From Methylomonas sp. (lineage in GTDB: Bacteria > Pseudomonadota > Gammaproteobacteria > Methylococcales > Methylomonadaceae), in NCBI GenBank assembly GCA_026989395.1, contig JALSJK010000078.1, forward strand, positions 1 through 64,000: a stretch of 64,000 bases of DNA. Direction: 5' to 3'. The notes beneath the pieces are model-generated. The model worked only from the letters and a program-made list of their open reading frames with translations. It had not been told where the DNA came from and did not search any database. This document shows positions 47,246-54,248 of this stretch, one piece after another. Position 1 is the first letter of the stretch. The number at the start of each line of letters is the position of its first letter. The translations under genes were made by a program, and so were the position numbers.

Positions 47246-49153
47246 ATGAAACAACAATCACCTTTTTCAATCGCAAAAATAATAATTCTAATTCTTTTCG
47301 GTTTTCTTATCAGTGCCTGTGGTGAAAAAACTGATGAAAATGAAGGACAAAAATCCTCAGAAAACGGTACTTTAGGTTTTGCTAAAAACCAGCAAGGACA
47401 AATTAAAATCGCAGTTTTAAGTACCAGTGATTTCTTTCCTGACCGGGCTGTTCAGCAACGAATGGGGCTTCCTGAAGATCTGGCAGCTCGAATCATCGAA
47501 AATTTACAAAAAAGCAATCGTTTTAATGTTCTGGAAAGAACAGCATTAAGAAAAATCATCAATGAGCAACAGTTCGGCAAAGGCGATAAAGAATCCTTTC
47601 TTGACCGTACTTTAAATGCCGCCACCGAAAATTTGCCCGATGTCAGCGGTTATGCAGTGAAATGGACAGGCATATTGTCAGACCATAATGATATTGTTAA
47701 GGAATATCAAAATCTGGGTACCACCATGGGAGCTGATTTCCTGGTGTTTGCAGTTCTGGAAAAAGCGGATGAAAAAATCAAAAACACTAATATCCCTCAT
47801 AGTGAAACGGGAAAGCAAATAACCAAGCATGTATCTGATGCCCGGCTTCGATTAAGAGTCATTGATACAAAAACCGGAATGATCGCAGGCACAGCAAGTT
47901 TTAGAACCAAAGTTAGCGAGTCGGTATTTGCAGGCCGTGAATCCAATCGTGATGCATACTCAACTTTTGACCATGTTGGCGCTCTCGCCGCACACAAAAT
48001 TCTGGATATCGTGTCACCGCCTAAAATTGTCAGCGCCAACCCTTATGTGATAAACCGTGGCAGCAACGATGGTTACACCGCTGACAATACCTTTAAAGTT
48101 TTCAGGGAAGACAAGGAAATACAAGACCCTAGTGGTATTACTATCGGTAGGCTTAAATCTCCTGTTGGCAATATCAAGCTGGACGCCGTTCAAGATACCA
48201 TCTCGGTAGTCGATATTGTCGATGGCGACATACAAGTTGGTGATTTACTGGAAATTCCTGAGCAAACTTCAAGTGCGAGCAGCTTATCCCAACAAGCAGT
48301 AAAACCAGTTGAAAGAACATCCCAAAATGGCAAACTAACCATTGCCATAGGAAAGGTTCACTTCAATGCTAACAATAATTATATTTTTCTTTCCGTTGAT
48401 GATTACCCTCGGGTCAAAAATGACCTGATGGTTAAACTAACCAACTCCAATCGTTTTGATGTTCTTGAAAGACATGAGATTGATCAGATTCTGGATGAAA
48501 AAAACTTTACCGCGTTAATGGGTGGCGATGAAATTGATCCATATTTAAAAGAAACGATTGGGGCAGATTATTTAGTTCTAACCGCGGTTGATAAATTTGC
48601 TATCCAGTCAGAAAATAATAAGCTTGCCTATGTTGATGAAGTTCAAACTCGTCATTATGGCATCGTCGAAGCCACTTTGCGTATCGTTGACAGCCATACT
48701 GGCAAACTTCTGGCCGCTGATAAAATTCGCATCAACAAAAAACTGGAAAAATATAATAAAAATATTGCCGCCAACACATACAGCAATCTGATTGATGAAT
48801 TTACTGATTTAATGGTCAGCAAAATTGTACATCGCATTTATCCCATTAAAATCATGGCGACACTTCCTGATGGCAGTGTCTATATTAACCGTGGACTGGA
48901 TGGAGGTTTGAAAGCTGGTGATATTTTCAATGTTATGCGCCCTGGCCAGGAATTGATTGATCCAGATACAGGCATTTCATTTGGCTCAGCAGAAACAAAA
49001 GTTGCCCAGTTAAAACTAGACACCGTAGAACCTGCACGAGCAAAAGCAGCCATCATTAGTGGCAACGAAGTTCAGCGAGGGGATATCTTGCGCGAGGCTG
49101 AAACCCAAAAACAAATACCCAAACAACCCGAAGTCAATAGACCGGTTTTCTAA
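47246..49153 (+). CDS. CsgG-like lipoprotein with duplicated module
   Basis: A 635-aa lipoprotein (LILFGFLISACGEK, Cys at 25). Two copies of the module in the preceding gene follow. The first spans about 48-330 (RIIENLQKSNRFNVLERTALRKIINEQQF, GADFLVFAVL, VIDTKTGMIAG, then YVINRGSNDGYTADNTFKVFRE). The second spans about 360-620 (LTNSNRFDVLERHEIDQILDEKNF, GADYLVLTAVD, IVDSHTGKLLA, then VYINRGLDGGLKAGDIFNV.....DPDTGISFG). They are joined by a Ser/Gln-rich linker (~335-355). It lies 35 bp after the first gene. It may sit at the inner face of the outer membrane. Confidence 0.75.
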   Translation: MKQQSPFSIAKIIILILFGFLISACGEKTDENEGQKSSENGTLGFAKNQQGQIKIAVLSTSDFFPDRAVQQRMGLPEDLAARIIENLQKSNRFNVLERTALRKIINEQQFGKGDKESFLDRTLNAATENLPDVSGYAVKWTGILSDHNDIVKEYQNLGTTMGADFLVFAVLEKADEKIKNTNIPHSETGKQITKHVSDARLRLRVIDTKTGMIAGTASFRTKVSESVFAGRESNRDAYSTFDHVGALAAHKILDIVSPPKIVSANPYVINRGSNDGYTADNTFKVFREDKEIQDPSGITIGRLKSPVGNIKLDAVQDTISVVDIVDGDIQVGDLLEIPEQTSSASSLSQQAVKPVERTSQNGKLTIAIGKVHFNANNNYIFLSVDDYPRVKNDLMVKLTNSNRFDVLERHEIDQILDEKNFTALMGGDEIDPYLKETIGADYLVLTAVDKFAIQSENNKLAYVDEVQTRHYGIVEATLRIVDSHTGKLLAADKIRINKKLEKYNKNIAANTYSNLIDEFTDLMVSKIVHRIYPIKIMATLPDGSVYINRGLDGGLKAGDIFNVMRPGQELIDPDTGISFGSAETKVAQLKLDTVEPARAKAAIISGNEVQRGDILREAETQKQIPKQPEVNRPVF

Positions 49154-49183: not shown

Positions 49184-50869
49184 ATGAATAAAAACTACAA
49201 AAAAAAATTTCGCCCAATGAGCCTGGTTCATGGCTTAACAAAGTTGAGAACCAGGTCTTTATTTCCCTTTAAAGGCTGCAAAAGGCAGCCCCCCCTGTGT
49301 ACAGCCAGCACTGTTTTTATGGCTTTCTGCCTCCTAGCTCTTCAACCTCAACAAGTCTATGCCATTGATTTTCTGGATGCTTTAAACAGTAGTCTTAAGC
49401 AGATCAATAAAAGCATCCCTAAGCCACCTGGTTCGGTGCCTCATCACAAGCCAGTAAAACCTGTTCCTGGCCATTATCCAGCCAACACTCATCAAAAAAG
49501 AAAAATTCAATATCAAATTACCTATGAAGGTTATTCCAAAGATTTTGTCCCCATCAGAAATTTAATTGCCTCAGGTGATTTCAAACGCGCATACGAACTG
49601 GAGCAACAAAACATCAAGGATAATGGTATTGATTTTTTAAATTCTGTTGAAGCCGGCCTGTTATCAATTGATACCCACCACACCCTTGATGGCATTAAGG
49701 ATTTTGCCAGCGCTGAAACTTATCTCAAACAAATGATGGGGCGATCTATTGCCGAAGAGTCTTTTACTCAATACGGCCTGGAGGCCATGAGCCTGATATC
49801 CGGAAAAGGGGACTTGGTTGAATATATCGGGGAACCCTATGAAAGAATCCTGATGCTTAATTATAAATCCATTGCCTATTTATTGAATGGCGAAAGGAAA
49901 GCCTATAATGTCACCCGCCGGGCAATCGACTGGCAAAATATCGAAAGAAAAGAATTTGAGAAAAATATTGGGGAAATAAAAAAGCAGGTTAAAGAAAACG
50001 AGAAAAAACCAGAGACAGAAAAAGCCGCATCTTATGCTCCAGAAGCTTTCGACCTGATCTTCAATCAATATAAACGTTACCAATCCAAAGCCAACAGCGT
50101 CCCCAGTGCGTATATTAATCCGTTCGGATTTTATATGGCTGGAATTATTCAGGAATTTGACAGCTATGAAGATGCATCGCTGCGAGGTAATGCCAGAATT
50201 TCTTATAAAAAGGCTCTGGAATTAAACCCTAGAAGCAAGGTTATCAAGCGGGCCATCAGAGCTACCAAAAGGAGACCTCCGCGACATAAACGCCTGGTGC
50301 ACGTTATTGTTGCCGATGGGTTTGCTCCTGAGAAAAAGACGCTTTCCTTTACACTAAATATAGGCGGGGGGTTGGTTCCCATCAAATCACCTCTTTTTGA
50401 GCCGGTCAAATCTTCTGTAAAAACCATCAAAATAAAATCAGGTAGAAAAGTATTGGCAACACTCTCCCCCATTGCTGATATTGAAGCGATCATTTTAAGA
50501 AACCAGCTGGACAAACTGCCGATTGAACAAGCTCGAGTCATGACGTCTATCGCCCGGAATATTGGCGAAAATTTATTATGGAATCAGCTTGGTGGCTTTG
50601 GCGTCATTGGCAAACTTTTTCGTGAAAGTTTTGCCAACCCGGATATGCGCGCCTGGATGACTTTACCCAAAAAAATATCGGCAGCTCGTTTCTATGTTTC
50701 AAAAAGACTAAAAAAAATCACCATTATCAGCTACGATAGGCGGGGCCGGAGATTGGCAAAAAAACATGTATTTTTAAACAGAAAATCGCATAATTTTATT
50801 TATGCCAGAAGCATAGAAAAAGCAATTTACGCACAAGTTAATAAAAACCTATGGATCAAAAAACCATGA
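49184..50869 (+). CDS. COG3014-like exported protein with TPR-like helices
   Basis: A 561-aa protein with a late N-terminal hydrophobic segment (TVFMAFCLLALQPQQVYA, ~43-60, after a basic stretch) that acts as a long signal or anchor. The middle (~110-360) is helical with a TPR-like pattern and the EPYERILMLNYKSIAYLLNGE motif of the uncharacterised COG3014 family; ARISYKKALELNPRSKV resembles a TPR. The C-terminal third (~370-560) is beta-rich (HVIVADGFAPEKKTLSFTL). In other gammaproteobacteria COG3014 genes sit with ycfL- and lpoB-like genes, as here. The function is unknown. Confidence 0.7.
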   Translation: MNKNYKKKFRPMSLVHGLTKLRTRSLFPFKGCKRQPPLCTASTVFMAFCLLALQPQQVYAIDFLDALNSSLKQINKSIPKPPGSVPHHKPVKPVPGHYPANTHQKRKIQYQITYEGYSKDFVPIRNLIASGDFKRAYELEQQNIKDNGIDFLNSVEAGLLSIDTHHTLDGIKDFASAETYLKQMMGRSIAEESFTQYGLEAMSLISGKGDLVEYIGEPYERILMLNYKSIAYLLNGERKAYNVTRRAIDWQNIERKEFEKNIGEIKKQVKENEKKPETEKAASYAPEAFDLIFNQYKRYQSKANSVPSAYINPFGFYMAGIIQEFDSYEDASLRGNARISYKKALELNPRSKVIKRAIRATKRRPPRHKRLVHVIVADGFAPEKKTLSFTLNIGGGLVPIKSPLFEPVKSSVKTIKIKSGRKVLATLSPIADIEAIILRNQLDKLPIEQARVMTSIARNIGENLLWNQLGGFGVIGKLFRESFANPDMRAWMTLPKKISAARFYVSKRLKKITIISYDRRGRRLAKKHVFLNRKSHNFIYARSIEKAIYAQVNKNLWIKKP

Positions 50870-51393
50870 TAAAAAAAATAATCACTCTCATCCTAGTTAC
50901 CTTTTTGACCAGTGGCTGCACTGCAAAAAAAGGTGCCAATATCCAATACCTGGCACAAAAAACCATTGACGACACGCATCCCCGTGCCACATTAATTCTG
51001 GGTTCAAGTGAACTGGTCAATAGAGTTTTAATTACCAATGTCAGGGTCGCTCAAGTTGGCTTGCTTCCCAAAGCCGGTATAGATGTTCAAAACTTGACTG
51101 ATAATCGCTACAACCTGGAATACAAGATTGTCTGGCGAGATAAACAGGGATTTCCGATTAATGTTGGCAATGTCTGGCACCGATTTGTTCTAAGCCCTAG
51201 AAAAATCAAAAGTTTCCAGAGTATGGGAAAGACAGAAGAGGCCTATTCCATCCAGTTTACTGTACGTTTCCCTGATGATTTATTTATTGAATCAGATAGA
51301 CGTGAGCAAGAATCAAAACAAATGGTCCCTTGCCCTCCTCCACTACCGCCGATTTGTCCTAAATCCATGAGAGATCGCGTACAATTCAAATAA
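50866..51393 (+). CDS. YcfL-like (DUF1425) lipoprotein
   Basis: A 175-aa lipoprotein (MIKKIITLILVTFLTSGCTAKKG). The mature part has the DUF1425 pattern: LINTNVRVAQVGLLPKAGIDVQNLT-like segment and LEYKIVWRDKQGFPI with W..F.L. YcfL is the standard partner encoded immediately before lpoB in E. coli. The ATG overlaps the stop of the COG3014-like gene (ATGA); an in-frame ATG 15 bp earlier lies inside that gene. The C-terminus (CPPPLPPICPKS) is Pro/Cys-rich and unusual. Confidence 0.78.
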   Translation: MIKKIITLILVTFLTSGCTAKKGANIQYLAQKTIDDTHPRATLILGSSELVNRVLITNVRVAQVGLLPKAGIDVQNLTDNRYNLEYKIVWRDKQGFPINVGNVWHRFVLSPRKIKSFQSMGKTEEAYSIQFTVRFPDDLFIESDRREQESKQMVPCPPPLPPICPKSMRDRVQFK

Positions 51394-51978: not shown

Positions 51979-53094
51979 ATGAAAATTGCTTGGCTGACCA
52001 TAATTTTTTTTCTGGGGACGATTCCATGCTACGCTGCCCCAAAGACTGCATTGGTTATAGGCAATTCCAATTATCAATCATCACCATTAACCAACCCGGT
52101 TAACGATGCTACTGATATAGCTGAAAAGCTCAGATATCTGGGCTTTGAGGTTTTTGACAAATTCGATTTAAATCGAAAACAAATGCGAAATGCCATTCGC
52201 GAATTCGGTCAAACTTTAAAACAAAAAGGCGGAGCAGGTATTTTCTTCTATGCTGGTCATGGCATCCAAGTTAAAGGGGAAAATTATTTAATTCCTGTCG
52301 GCGCTGATATCCAATCCGAATTTGAAGTTCCTGATGAATCTGTTCAGGCAAATTTATTATTACGCGCTCTGGAAGATGCCGGCAATCCTCTAAATATCGT
52401 GGTATTAGACGCTTGCCGGGATAACCCTTTTGCACGCAGCTTTCGTTCCTCAGCAAAAGGACTGGCGAGAATGGAAGGTGGAGTGGGAACTCTTATTGCC
52501 TACTCAACTGGGCCGGGAAATGTGGCAATGGATGGTGAAGGACGCAACAGCCCCTATACTAAATATTTACTCAAATATATGACCCAAACCGGACTGTCCA
52601 TTGAACAGGTTTTCAAACGCGTCAGAGTGGGCGTGGAAAAAGATTCAGGAGGACGACAAATTCCTTGGGAATCATCATCGTTACGAAACGATTTCTATTT
52701 TGTTCCAGAACCTGTTGAATTGACCAAGCATTCACCACAAAACCAGATTAATAAAGACATTGAAAAGTCAAAAAAACACACCATAAAGGTAACTGCTTCT
52801 GAAACAAGAGCCAAAAACAGCTCATTGGTGACAAATGCGCTGATGACCAATTATGTCGACACCAATTCACAGACAACTTCAGGTTATAAATTAACTATCT
52901 ATACCAACCCTGGCTCTGCGCAAATACGCATACTCAATCTGGACAAAAATTATCATTCCGGTATCACACTTGAACCCGGGGATTACAATTTGGAGATCAG
53001 TAAAGAAGGATATTTAAGTAAAAAACAATGGGTAACAATTGACCAGGATAATGTGGAAATGCAAATAACCCTGGTGCCACTAGACTATGAATAA
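51979..53094 (+). CDS. Exported caspase-fold (C14) peptidase with PEGA domain
   Basis: A 371-aa protein with a signal peptide (MKIAWLTIIFFLGTIPCYA). The caspase-type domain (~22-260) has the start KTALVIGNSNYQSSPLTNPVNDA, the catalytic His94 in FFYAGHG and Cys146 in VVLDACRDNPF, and YSTGPGNVAMDGEGRNSPYT, as in metacaspase-like C14 proteins. A polar linker (~265-295) leads to a PEGA-type beta domain (LTIYTNPGSAQIRILNLDK...LEPGDYNLEISKEGYLSKKQWVTI). Substrates and timing of activation are unknown. It is the last gene of the operon, 31 bp after lpoB, and converges on a TPR lipoprotein gene. Confidence 0.85.
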   Translation: MKIAWLTIIFFLGTIPCYAAPKTALVIGNSNYQSSPLTNPVNDATDIAEKLRYLGFEVFDKFDLNRKQMRNAIREFGQTLKQKGGAGIFFYAGHGIQVKGENYLIPVGADIQSEFEVPDESVQANLLLRALEDAGNPLNIVVLDACRDNPFARSFRSSAKGLARMEGGVGTLIAYSTGPGNVAMDGEGRNSPYTKYLLKYMTQTGLSIEQVFKRVRVGVEKDSGGRQIPWESSSLRNDFYFVPEPVELTKHSPQNQINKDIEKSKKHTIKVTASETRAKNSSLVTNALMTNYVDTNSQTTSGYKLTIYTNPGSAQIRILNLDKNYHSGITLEPGDYNLEISKEGYLSKKQWVTIDQDNVEMQITLVPLDYE

Positions 53095-53100
53095 AACCTG

Positions 53101-53667
53101 TTAATAATTATCCGCTTTTGTTTTTGCTTCTTTTGCGCCAAACTGATTACCCTGCATCCGTCTTGCTTCTGCAATTAACAACCACGCCCGACGTTTTATC
53201 AAAGTGTTATTTCCTGCAAGAAGCGCTGACTTTTTAGCCAAAGCCTCTGCAAGCCTGGCTTTTCCTTGCCTTAAACGAACTGCTGCCAATTTATAAACCA
53301 ACTTGGCATTTCTTGGTTCGATTCTTAAAGCCCTTTCAATCGTAGAAACTGCTTGTTCATATTCTCCGGCTTTGTAACTTTGGTCGGCCTTTGTCAGCAA
53401 TGCGACAACAGCGGGTGTCAAAGGTTTATTGTGAGTAAAATAATCAGAATGCCTTTTTTGAGGGGAAGTTTGGTAAGGATAAGTTTTAACAGTTTGTTGT
53501 TTTCCAGAAAAAACCTCTTTATTTTCACTGGGGTAGTGCCTTTTAGTTTCTGTATTCTGCCTTGAACTGTAAATAGAGGATTTCCTCTGTGCTCTCGATG
53601 TATGATAAGTACAGGCCGCCAATAAAAAAACCAGTATTGTCAGTAAAATAAATTTATTTTTTTTCAT
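53101..53667 (-). CDS. TPR lipoprotein
   Basis: A 188-aa lipoprotein (FILLTILVFLLAACTYH). After a Ser/Lys/Gln-rich low-complexity stretch (~20-75), TPR-like repeats follow (ALLTKADQSYKAGEYEQAVSTIERALRIEPRNAKLVYKLAAVRLRQGKARLAEALAKKS shows A..A and 34-residue spacing), then a basic C-terminus. It probably scaffolds envelope proteins. The start overlaps the stop of the upstream gene (TAATG), so the two are coupled. It has only 6 bp to the caspase stop. Confidence 0.75.
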   Translation of the reverse strand: MKKNKFILLTILVFLLAACTYHTSRAQRKSSIYSSRQNTETKRHYPSENKEVFSGKQQTVKTYPYQTSPQKRHSDYFTHNKPLTPAVVALLTKADQSYKAGEYEQAVSTIERALRIEPRNAKLVYKLAAVRLRQGKARLAEALAKKSALLAGNNTLIKRRAWLLIAEARRMQGNQFGAKEAKTKADNY

Positions 53668-54209
53668 TAAAAAAGTTCAATATCCTCATCTTCTTCGGTT
53701 TTTTGTTCTTCTGAAGCAGCAATCTTAAGGGCTTCTTCAACGCTTTTTCCACTTACAATGGCATCAAACAATGCTTTTTCGGATTCCATGGTATAGGTAG
53801 ATCGAATCTGTTCCTGTAGTTTCGCCCACTCCCTTGGATTATACAGGCGTTCCGGACTTTCGACGATATCTGATAACGCTTTCAAGCTGAATGTAACATG
53901 CTGCAACCGCTGCTGTAATCGATCATAGAACTGAAAAGCAACAATTGAAGTTCTGATTTTATCTGAGGTAGCAGCACAATGCGCTAATGCTAAATCTTTT
54001 GCATCACTTGGCTCTAATAAATCCAGTTGTTCATTGATTCCCGCCAAATGTTCCACCATCGCAGTAAATGACTCAGTCAAAACAGTTACTGAATCGTCCC
54101 CTTCAACCATACTTCCTTCAACATGCGTGGCAGAAAGAGCTAGTAATTTGACTGTTTCTCTAACCTGGCTCCAGTCTAGATCAGGTTGGTGTGCGTAGGA
54201 TTGTGTCAT
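53667..54209 (-). CDS. Conserved helical cytosolic protein
   Basis: A 180-aa soluble all-helical protein. AFQFYDRLQQRLQHVTFSLKAL and LYNPREWAKLQEQIRSTYTMESEKALFDAI are conserved-looking segments, resembling proteins of many gammaproteobacteria often annotated as hypothetical and sometimes located next to GGDEF proteins; F-Q-x-x-D-R-L-x-Q recalls CheZ-type helices. The C-terminus is very acidic (KTEEDEDIELF). The ATG at 54209 follows GGGG at normal spacing; a TTG at 54224 would add five residues. A signalling role with the nearby cyclase is only a guess. Confidence 0.7.
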   Translation of the reverse strand: MTQSYAHQPDLDWSQVRETVKLLALSATHVEGSMVEGDDSVTVLTESFTAMVEHLAGINEQLDLLEPSDAKDLALAHCAATSDKIRTSIVAFQFYDRLQQRLQHVTFSLKALSDIVESPERLYNPREWAKLQEQIRSTYTMESEKALFDAIVSGKSVEEALKIAASEEQKTEEDEDIELF

Positions 54210-54248
54210 AAATAATTTCCCCAAAATAAGTCAGCAAAATGCATCTTC

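Follow-up and report, generated by a model that had tools for sequence, protein, structure and literature searches.

Apparently ancient CsgG/FlgT_C-type modules in a two-module lipoprotein and its neighbour, with a possible link to peptidoglycan synthesis

The 635-aa lipoprotein encoded in the DNA analysed here (the window, a stretch of 64,000 nucleotides from contig 78 of G000, a methane-oxidiser's genome of 3.27 Mb that is 98% complete) contains the same module twice, a CsgG/TolB-N-like domain followed by an FlgT_C domain, and a third copy of this module forms the 293-aa product of the preceding gene, P. Judging from a tree of the modules, P and the N-terminal (N) and C-terminal (C) halves of the lipoprotein are old paralogues, whose origin precedes the divergence of the families examined, or else a transfer between those families. 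Their fold and neighbours suggest a modular scaffold or ring on the outer-membrane side that is tied to peptidoglycan synthesis, a tentative proposal to which we give slightly less than even chances.

The operon comprises six co-directional genes with intergenic gaps of 35, 30, -19, 29 and 31 bases (Table 1), and the positions and sizes of its first two genes are as the original prediction had described them. The name COG3014 for the 561-aa protein is one that we presume to apply. Promoter-like sites were not more frequent than in shuffled sequences. Our literature search found no paper describing the operon and none combining CsgG, LpoB and YcfL, or CsgG, FlgT and TolB; DUF1425 turned up in a single mention in one paper.

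Table 1. Features of the operon, with positions in the window
Feature	Position	Strand	Remarks
P, separate single-module protein, 293 aa	46329..47210	+	Sec signal peptide; CsgG-like 62-198, FlgT_C-like 213-279
Two-module lipoprotein, 635 aa	47246..49153	+	Lipobox ISAC, Cys25
N module (residues 49-338), CsgG-like + FlgT_C-like	47390..48259	+	T1 clade; additional ~35-residue segment
Linker between N and C modules, 21 residues (339-359)	48260..48322	+	Low confidence; pLDDT < 50 at 339-361
C module (residues 360-618), CsgG-like + FlgT_C-like	48323..49099	+	T3 clade
COG3014-type protein, 561 aa	49184..50869	+	hhalign E 1.8e-34 vs ~470-aa lipoprotein of single-module operons
YcfL/DUF1425 lipoprotein	50851..51393	+	19-base overlap with preceding COG3014-type gene
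Divergent LpoB-type lipoprotein, 174 aa	51423..51947	+	Sole stand-alone LpoB-family gene found in G000
Exported caspase (Peptidase_C14), C-terminal PEGA domain	51979..53094	+	Recurrent neighbour of operon

The internal repeat and its third copy in the preceding gene, both claimed earlier from the sequence, were borne out by significant alignments. In BLASTP the N and C halves matched each other over 267 aa with 27% identity (E 1.7e-21), while P matched the C half (E 5.6e-28) and the N half (E 5e-9); the corresponding Smith-Waterman z-scores, computed against 500 shuffles, were 29 (N with C), 34 (C with P) and 12 (N with P). Mutual identity of the three modules is about 25%. Both proteins have Pfam hits to CsgG and FlgT_C, with two to FlgT_C in the larger one, and the CsgG scores (72.3 and 24.9 bits) exceed the curated cut-off of 20.8; this domain architecture, also predicted before, is one on which Pfam, alignments and structure search agree. 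The landmarks said to be common to all three modules do recur in the same order: a helix (RKFRVLSR at 64-71 in P, NRFNVLER at 91-98 in N, NRFDVLER at 402-409 in C), a strand (NAHYLIL at 103, GADFLVF at 162 and GADYLVL at 439), a D-x-x-T-G turn (at 147, 207 and 482) and INRG (at 217, 269 and 547). The last of them, D-P-D-T-G, is present in P (242) and in the C half (572) and absent from the N half, which has D-P-S-G (294-297) instead. Relative to the nearest relative, dN/dS is about 0.03 in P, N and C, indicating that all three modules are under strong purifying selection.

A search with a profile built from the two-module protein returned few orthologues. Among 301 genomes of the window's order, 12 carry a multi-module gene, with two modules in nine and 2.5 in three. 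Including one genome of another order (G445), two-module proteins were found in ten genomes (the others being G000, G001, G002, G017, G572, G641, G523, G620 and G598). Three complete modules lie in a single protein of 913-932 aa in six genomes (G277, G428, G430, G431, G432 and G436) of f106, a family in the order to which G445 belongs. In f7, a sister family to the window's family f1, proteins of 824-831 aa (G448, G470, G481) have a third module that ends before FlgT_C (L118:7002-9497, L119:6458-8953 and L120:1873-4347), the next gene beginning some 20 bases on; this loss of FlgT_C is a clean, conserved truncation. The operon itself is conserved. P stands upstream of the multi-module gene in 18/18 genomes where the contig permits, with one small ORF called between the two in G277, and the COG3014-type, YcfL and LpoB genes follow downstream in 18/18 genomes whose contig extends that far.

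The original prediction proposed tandem duplication and fusion within the operon, which the proximity of three homologous modules would favour. We built a tree of 77 modules with IQ-TREE (LG+C20). Three clades in it have 100/100 support, one made up of P (18 rows), one of N together with T1 (19 rows) and one of T2 (9 rows); T2 adjoins C with T3, so that P, N/T1, T2 and C/T3 sort by their position in the protein, not by genome, across two orders. AU tests on alternative groupings rejected a duplication giving rise to N and C inside f1 (p-AU 5.6e-31), as well as separate T2+T3 duplications in f106 (1.4e-7) and f7 (1.7e-6); the groups tested had been named after inspection of the topology, yet such p values are extreme. 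Positional sorting and these rejections together indicate that the fused halves are ancient paralogues, and a recent duplication in the window's lineage, refuted by the AU tests, retains practically no probability. A grouping of T2 with the C modules of f7 and f106 as a single clade was not rejected (AU p 0.38), so T2 may either have been lost on the way to the window's protein or have been gained in the f7/f106 lineage. The modules of G445 nest within f106 in the tree, and its two-module state would be explained most simply by loss of T2.

For the C module, modelled from an alignment of 15 modules, AlphaFold2 predicted two domains (pLDDT 77), the first alpha/beta and bearing a long beta hairpin, the second all-beta. 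The full-length model of the two-module protein was weaker (pLDDT 61), with an unstructured linker at 339-361 and no predicted mutual orientation of the modules. In a Foldseek search with the C module the best PDB match was FlgT, both in the LPHT ring (E 2e-15) and alone (1e-14), ahead of GNA1162, CsgG (9e-7), DUF330, CT253, PelC (2.5e-5) and TolB (5.6e-5). TM-scores to FlgT were low (0.42-0.47 over the query), either because the domains are differently arranged or because the model is imprecise, so the likeness is one of single domains and not rigid. On these models, the module appears structurally closer to the middle and C-terminal domains of FlgT than to CsgG. FlgT (a flagellar H-ring protein; PDB 3w1e, 8z5n; FlgT_C PF16538) shares with every module a TolB-N-like middle domain and then FlgT_C. 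The window's modules differ in that they lack the N-terminal domain of FlgT, the CsgG-like domain following immediately on the signal peptide or linker; moreover, there are two or three such middle-plus-C-terminal units per chain, they are 13-14% identical to FlgT, and the locus lies outside any flagellar gene cluster. The FlgT_C part of the module is also matched (E 7e-9) by one domain of TsaP, a ring protein associated with the pilus secretin (PDB 3jc8), whereas TsaP has a LysM domain and no CsgG-like domain of it was matched. LpoB (an activator of PBP1B; PF13036) has a related TolB-N-like fold. Elsewhere in G000, on contig 23, a 416-aa lipoprotein combines SH3_3 with a CsgG/FlgO domain (L001:676-1926).

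The CsgG matches could suggest an outer-membrane secretion channel in which the double protein gives a pseudo-oligomeric pore. CsgG contributes two membrane beta-hairpins per protomer to the 36-stranded barrel of a nonamer (PMC7304575). With CsgG itself (the curli secretion channel; PF03783; PDB 4uv2, 4uv3) the window protein shares the CsgG domain fold and the FxxLER helix, and its Pfam CsgG scores are above the cut-off; it differs in the added FlgT_C domain and in having several modules per chain. The profile match to CsgG covers residues 52-186 and stops there. Taking the hairpin positions of CsgG to be as we assume them, the stretch aligned with the TM1 hairpin has 6-10 charged or His residues in 22-23, and no second hairpin (TM2) is present: in the models, the strand that follows the D-x-x-T-G turn passes straight into a helix. 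These three features, the charged TM1 stretch, the absent TM2 and the match ending at 186, make a CsgG-type pore unlikely. Further, no curli gene (CsgE, CsgF, CsgA, CsgB) was recognised among the operon neighbours, and the multi-module proteins of f7 and f106 have no convincing lipobox. A CsgG-type channel with a pseudo-oligomeric pore seems very improbable; a periplasmic assembly appears the likelier alternative from the models and alignments.

The resemblance to FlgT, including the LPHT-ring structure 8z5n as a top match, could also point to a flagellar accessory, namely an additional H-ring-like collar around the LP ring whose multi-module chains replace or supplement FlgT. FlgI was found in 11/12 multi-module genomes and in 163/289 other genomes of the window's order (Fisher p 0.016, kinship ignored), an association that is suggestive. 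In line with it, FlgI is lacking in three genomes (G021, G603, G541) that have the single-module version and belong to the same family, and no further FlgT_C gene was found in G000. Nevertheless, G001 has the locus and no FlgI was found in its draft assembly; in f106 the frequencies of FlgI (7/8 vs 10/16) do not differ significantly (p 0.35); a separate protein with FlgT_C, ~390-420 aa long, exists in G017, G021 and G523; and the operon contains LpoB and no flagellar gene. A flagellar role thus looks decidedly unlikely, even if less so than a pore.

The operon neighbours direct attention to the cell wall. A one-module version of the operon occurs in other Gammaproteobacteria (e.g. loci L049-L053), including the close relatives G021, G541 and G603, with CsgG-FlgT_C, COG3014, YcfL and LpoB genes in the same order and with partners homologous to those of the multi-module operons (hhalign, for YcfL 2.8e-19 and for LpoB 5e-12; for the COG3014-type protein see Table 1). 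The two versions differ in that one has a single module and the other P plus two to three modules; in addition, one-module operons carry a full-length, canonical LpoB, and no caspase was seen alongside them in the stretches read. In multi-module operons the match to the LpoB profile is limited to roughly its first half, the C-terminal half having diverged; the window's LpoB matches profile positions 2-73 of 147 (Pfam), and the same divergence was noted at L113:11831-12958. As in G000, no stand-alone LpoB-family gene other than the operon's was found in G001, G017, G572, G641 or in those genomes of f7 and f106 that were checked, while a fuller LpoB lies elsewhere in genomes G523, G620 and G002. 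Two LpoB-type genes stand in tandem in the operons of G523 and G620. PBP1B with the UB2H domain was present in 18/19 genomes checked, including the window's own. Because of its divergence, the operon LpoB may fail to activate PBP1B.

The exported caspase is a recurrent, dispensable neighbour of the operon. Homologous exported caspases lie downstream of the operon in f1 (six loci) and upstream of it in f106 (six loci), and none was found in G017, G448 or G470; in the one f106 caspase examined, from G277, the fusion includes PEGA and an FGE-sulfatase domain. Besides the window's, such genes were noted beside the operon at L048:13050-15155 and L113:12997-14178. Anti-phage defence was considered and rejected, as PADLOC gave no convincing match except to its generic caspase model. 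A separate five-gene cluster lies near the operon in some relatives (L113:1262-6100; L049:9290-13847), encoding a DUF4384 lipoprotein, a 150-aa lipoprotein, an MltC-like transglycosylase, an LPP20 lipoprotein and a 'QPDLDWSQVRE' protein; a homologue of this last gene lies past the caspase in the window (53667-54224).

How the large protein is held in the envelope seems to vary among lineages. The earlier claim of a lipobox confined to the large protein is right when that protein is set against P in the window; the downstream YcfL and LpoB genes carry lipoboxes as well, and the property is specific to a lineage. Indeed, a lipobox is present in 7/8 f1 orthologues with a complete N terminus, whereas the proteins of f7, f106 and, within f1, G523 have a signal peptide without a convincing lipobox, so lipidation of the large protein is not general. 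At the N termini from G017 and G572 (L059:8777-10639, L115:4227-6092), Asp follows the lipobox Cys at +2, a residue that in E. coli favours the inner membrane.

Putting fold and neighbours together, we propose that the product of the operon's second gene is a periplasmic protein of several modules, each joining a domain of the FlgT-middle/CsgG/TolB-N type to an FlgT_C-type beta domain, and that in the window's organism a lipid anchor holds it to a membrane. The P, N and C modules are old, specialised paralogues, and P and the multi-module protein most plausibly build one assembly on the outer-membrane side, possibly a ring as in FlgT, CsgG and PelC. Together with its operon partners (the COG3014-type protein, YcfL and the divergent LpoB), this assembly would position or control the peptidoglycan synthase PBP1B, the exported caspase being a likely accessory where present. 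As relatives have two, 2.5 or three modules, the protein would behave as a scaffold of changeable length. The interaction of P with the multi-module protein, the formation of a ring and the link to peptidoglycan are inferred; the missing lipid anchor in other families, the poor full-length model (pLDDT 61), the low TM-scores to FlgT and the divergence of the operon LpoB count against the proposal.

The varying number of modules (2, 2.5 or 3), the seemingly flexible linkers of about 20-40 residues and the loss of the last FlgT_C in f7 would also suit fused modules that serve as bead-like adaptors, binding P, the COG3014-type protein, YcfL and LpoB without any ring. Several structural neighbours of known assembly, FlgT, CsgG and PelC, form rings (PMC7304575, PMC4960245), which argues against such adaptors, and we regard them as somewhat unlikely. 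Pseudo-oligomeric rings made from fused modules, as first suggested, are a possible candidate. More elaborately, four specialised FlgT/CsgG-type modules (P, T1, T2 and T3) might form a hetero-oligomeric envelope ring or stack whose height or symmetry is set by the number of modules per chain, co-regulated with peptidoglycan synthesis through the divergent LpoB and, in some lineages, the exported caspase; we offer this as speculation that is unlikely to hold in full.

To conclude, a single module in each chain is the usual state of ring proteins of the CsgG, FlgT, PelC and TolB-N kind. Here, chains have persisted over long periods with one, two, 2.5 or three modules, in every case beside a separate single-module protein where the contig reaches, and this variety of lengths makes the locus suitable for testing directly how the symmetry or stacking of a ring depends on the length of its chains. 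Moreover, the operon links a fold of the CsgG/FlgT type to an LpoB-type protein and an exported caspase.
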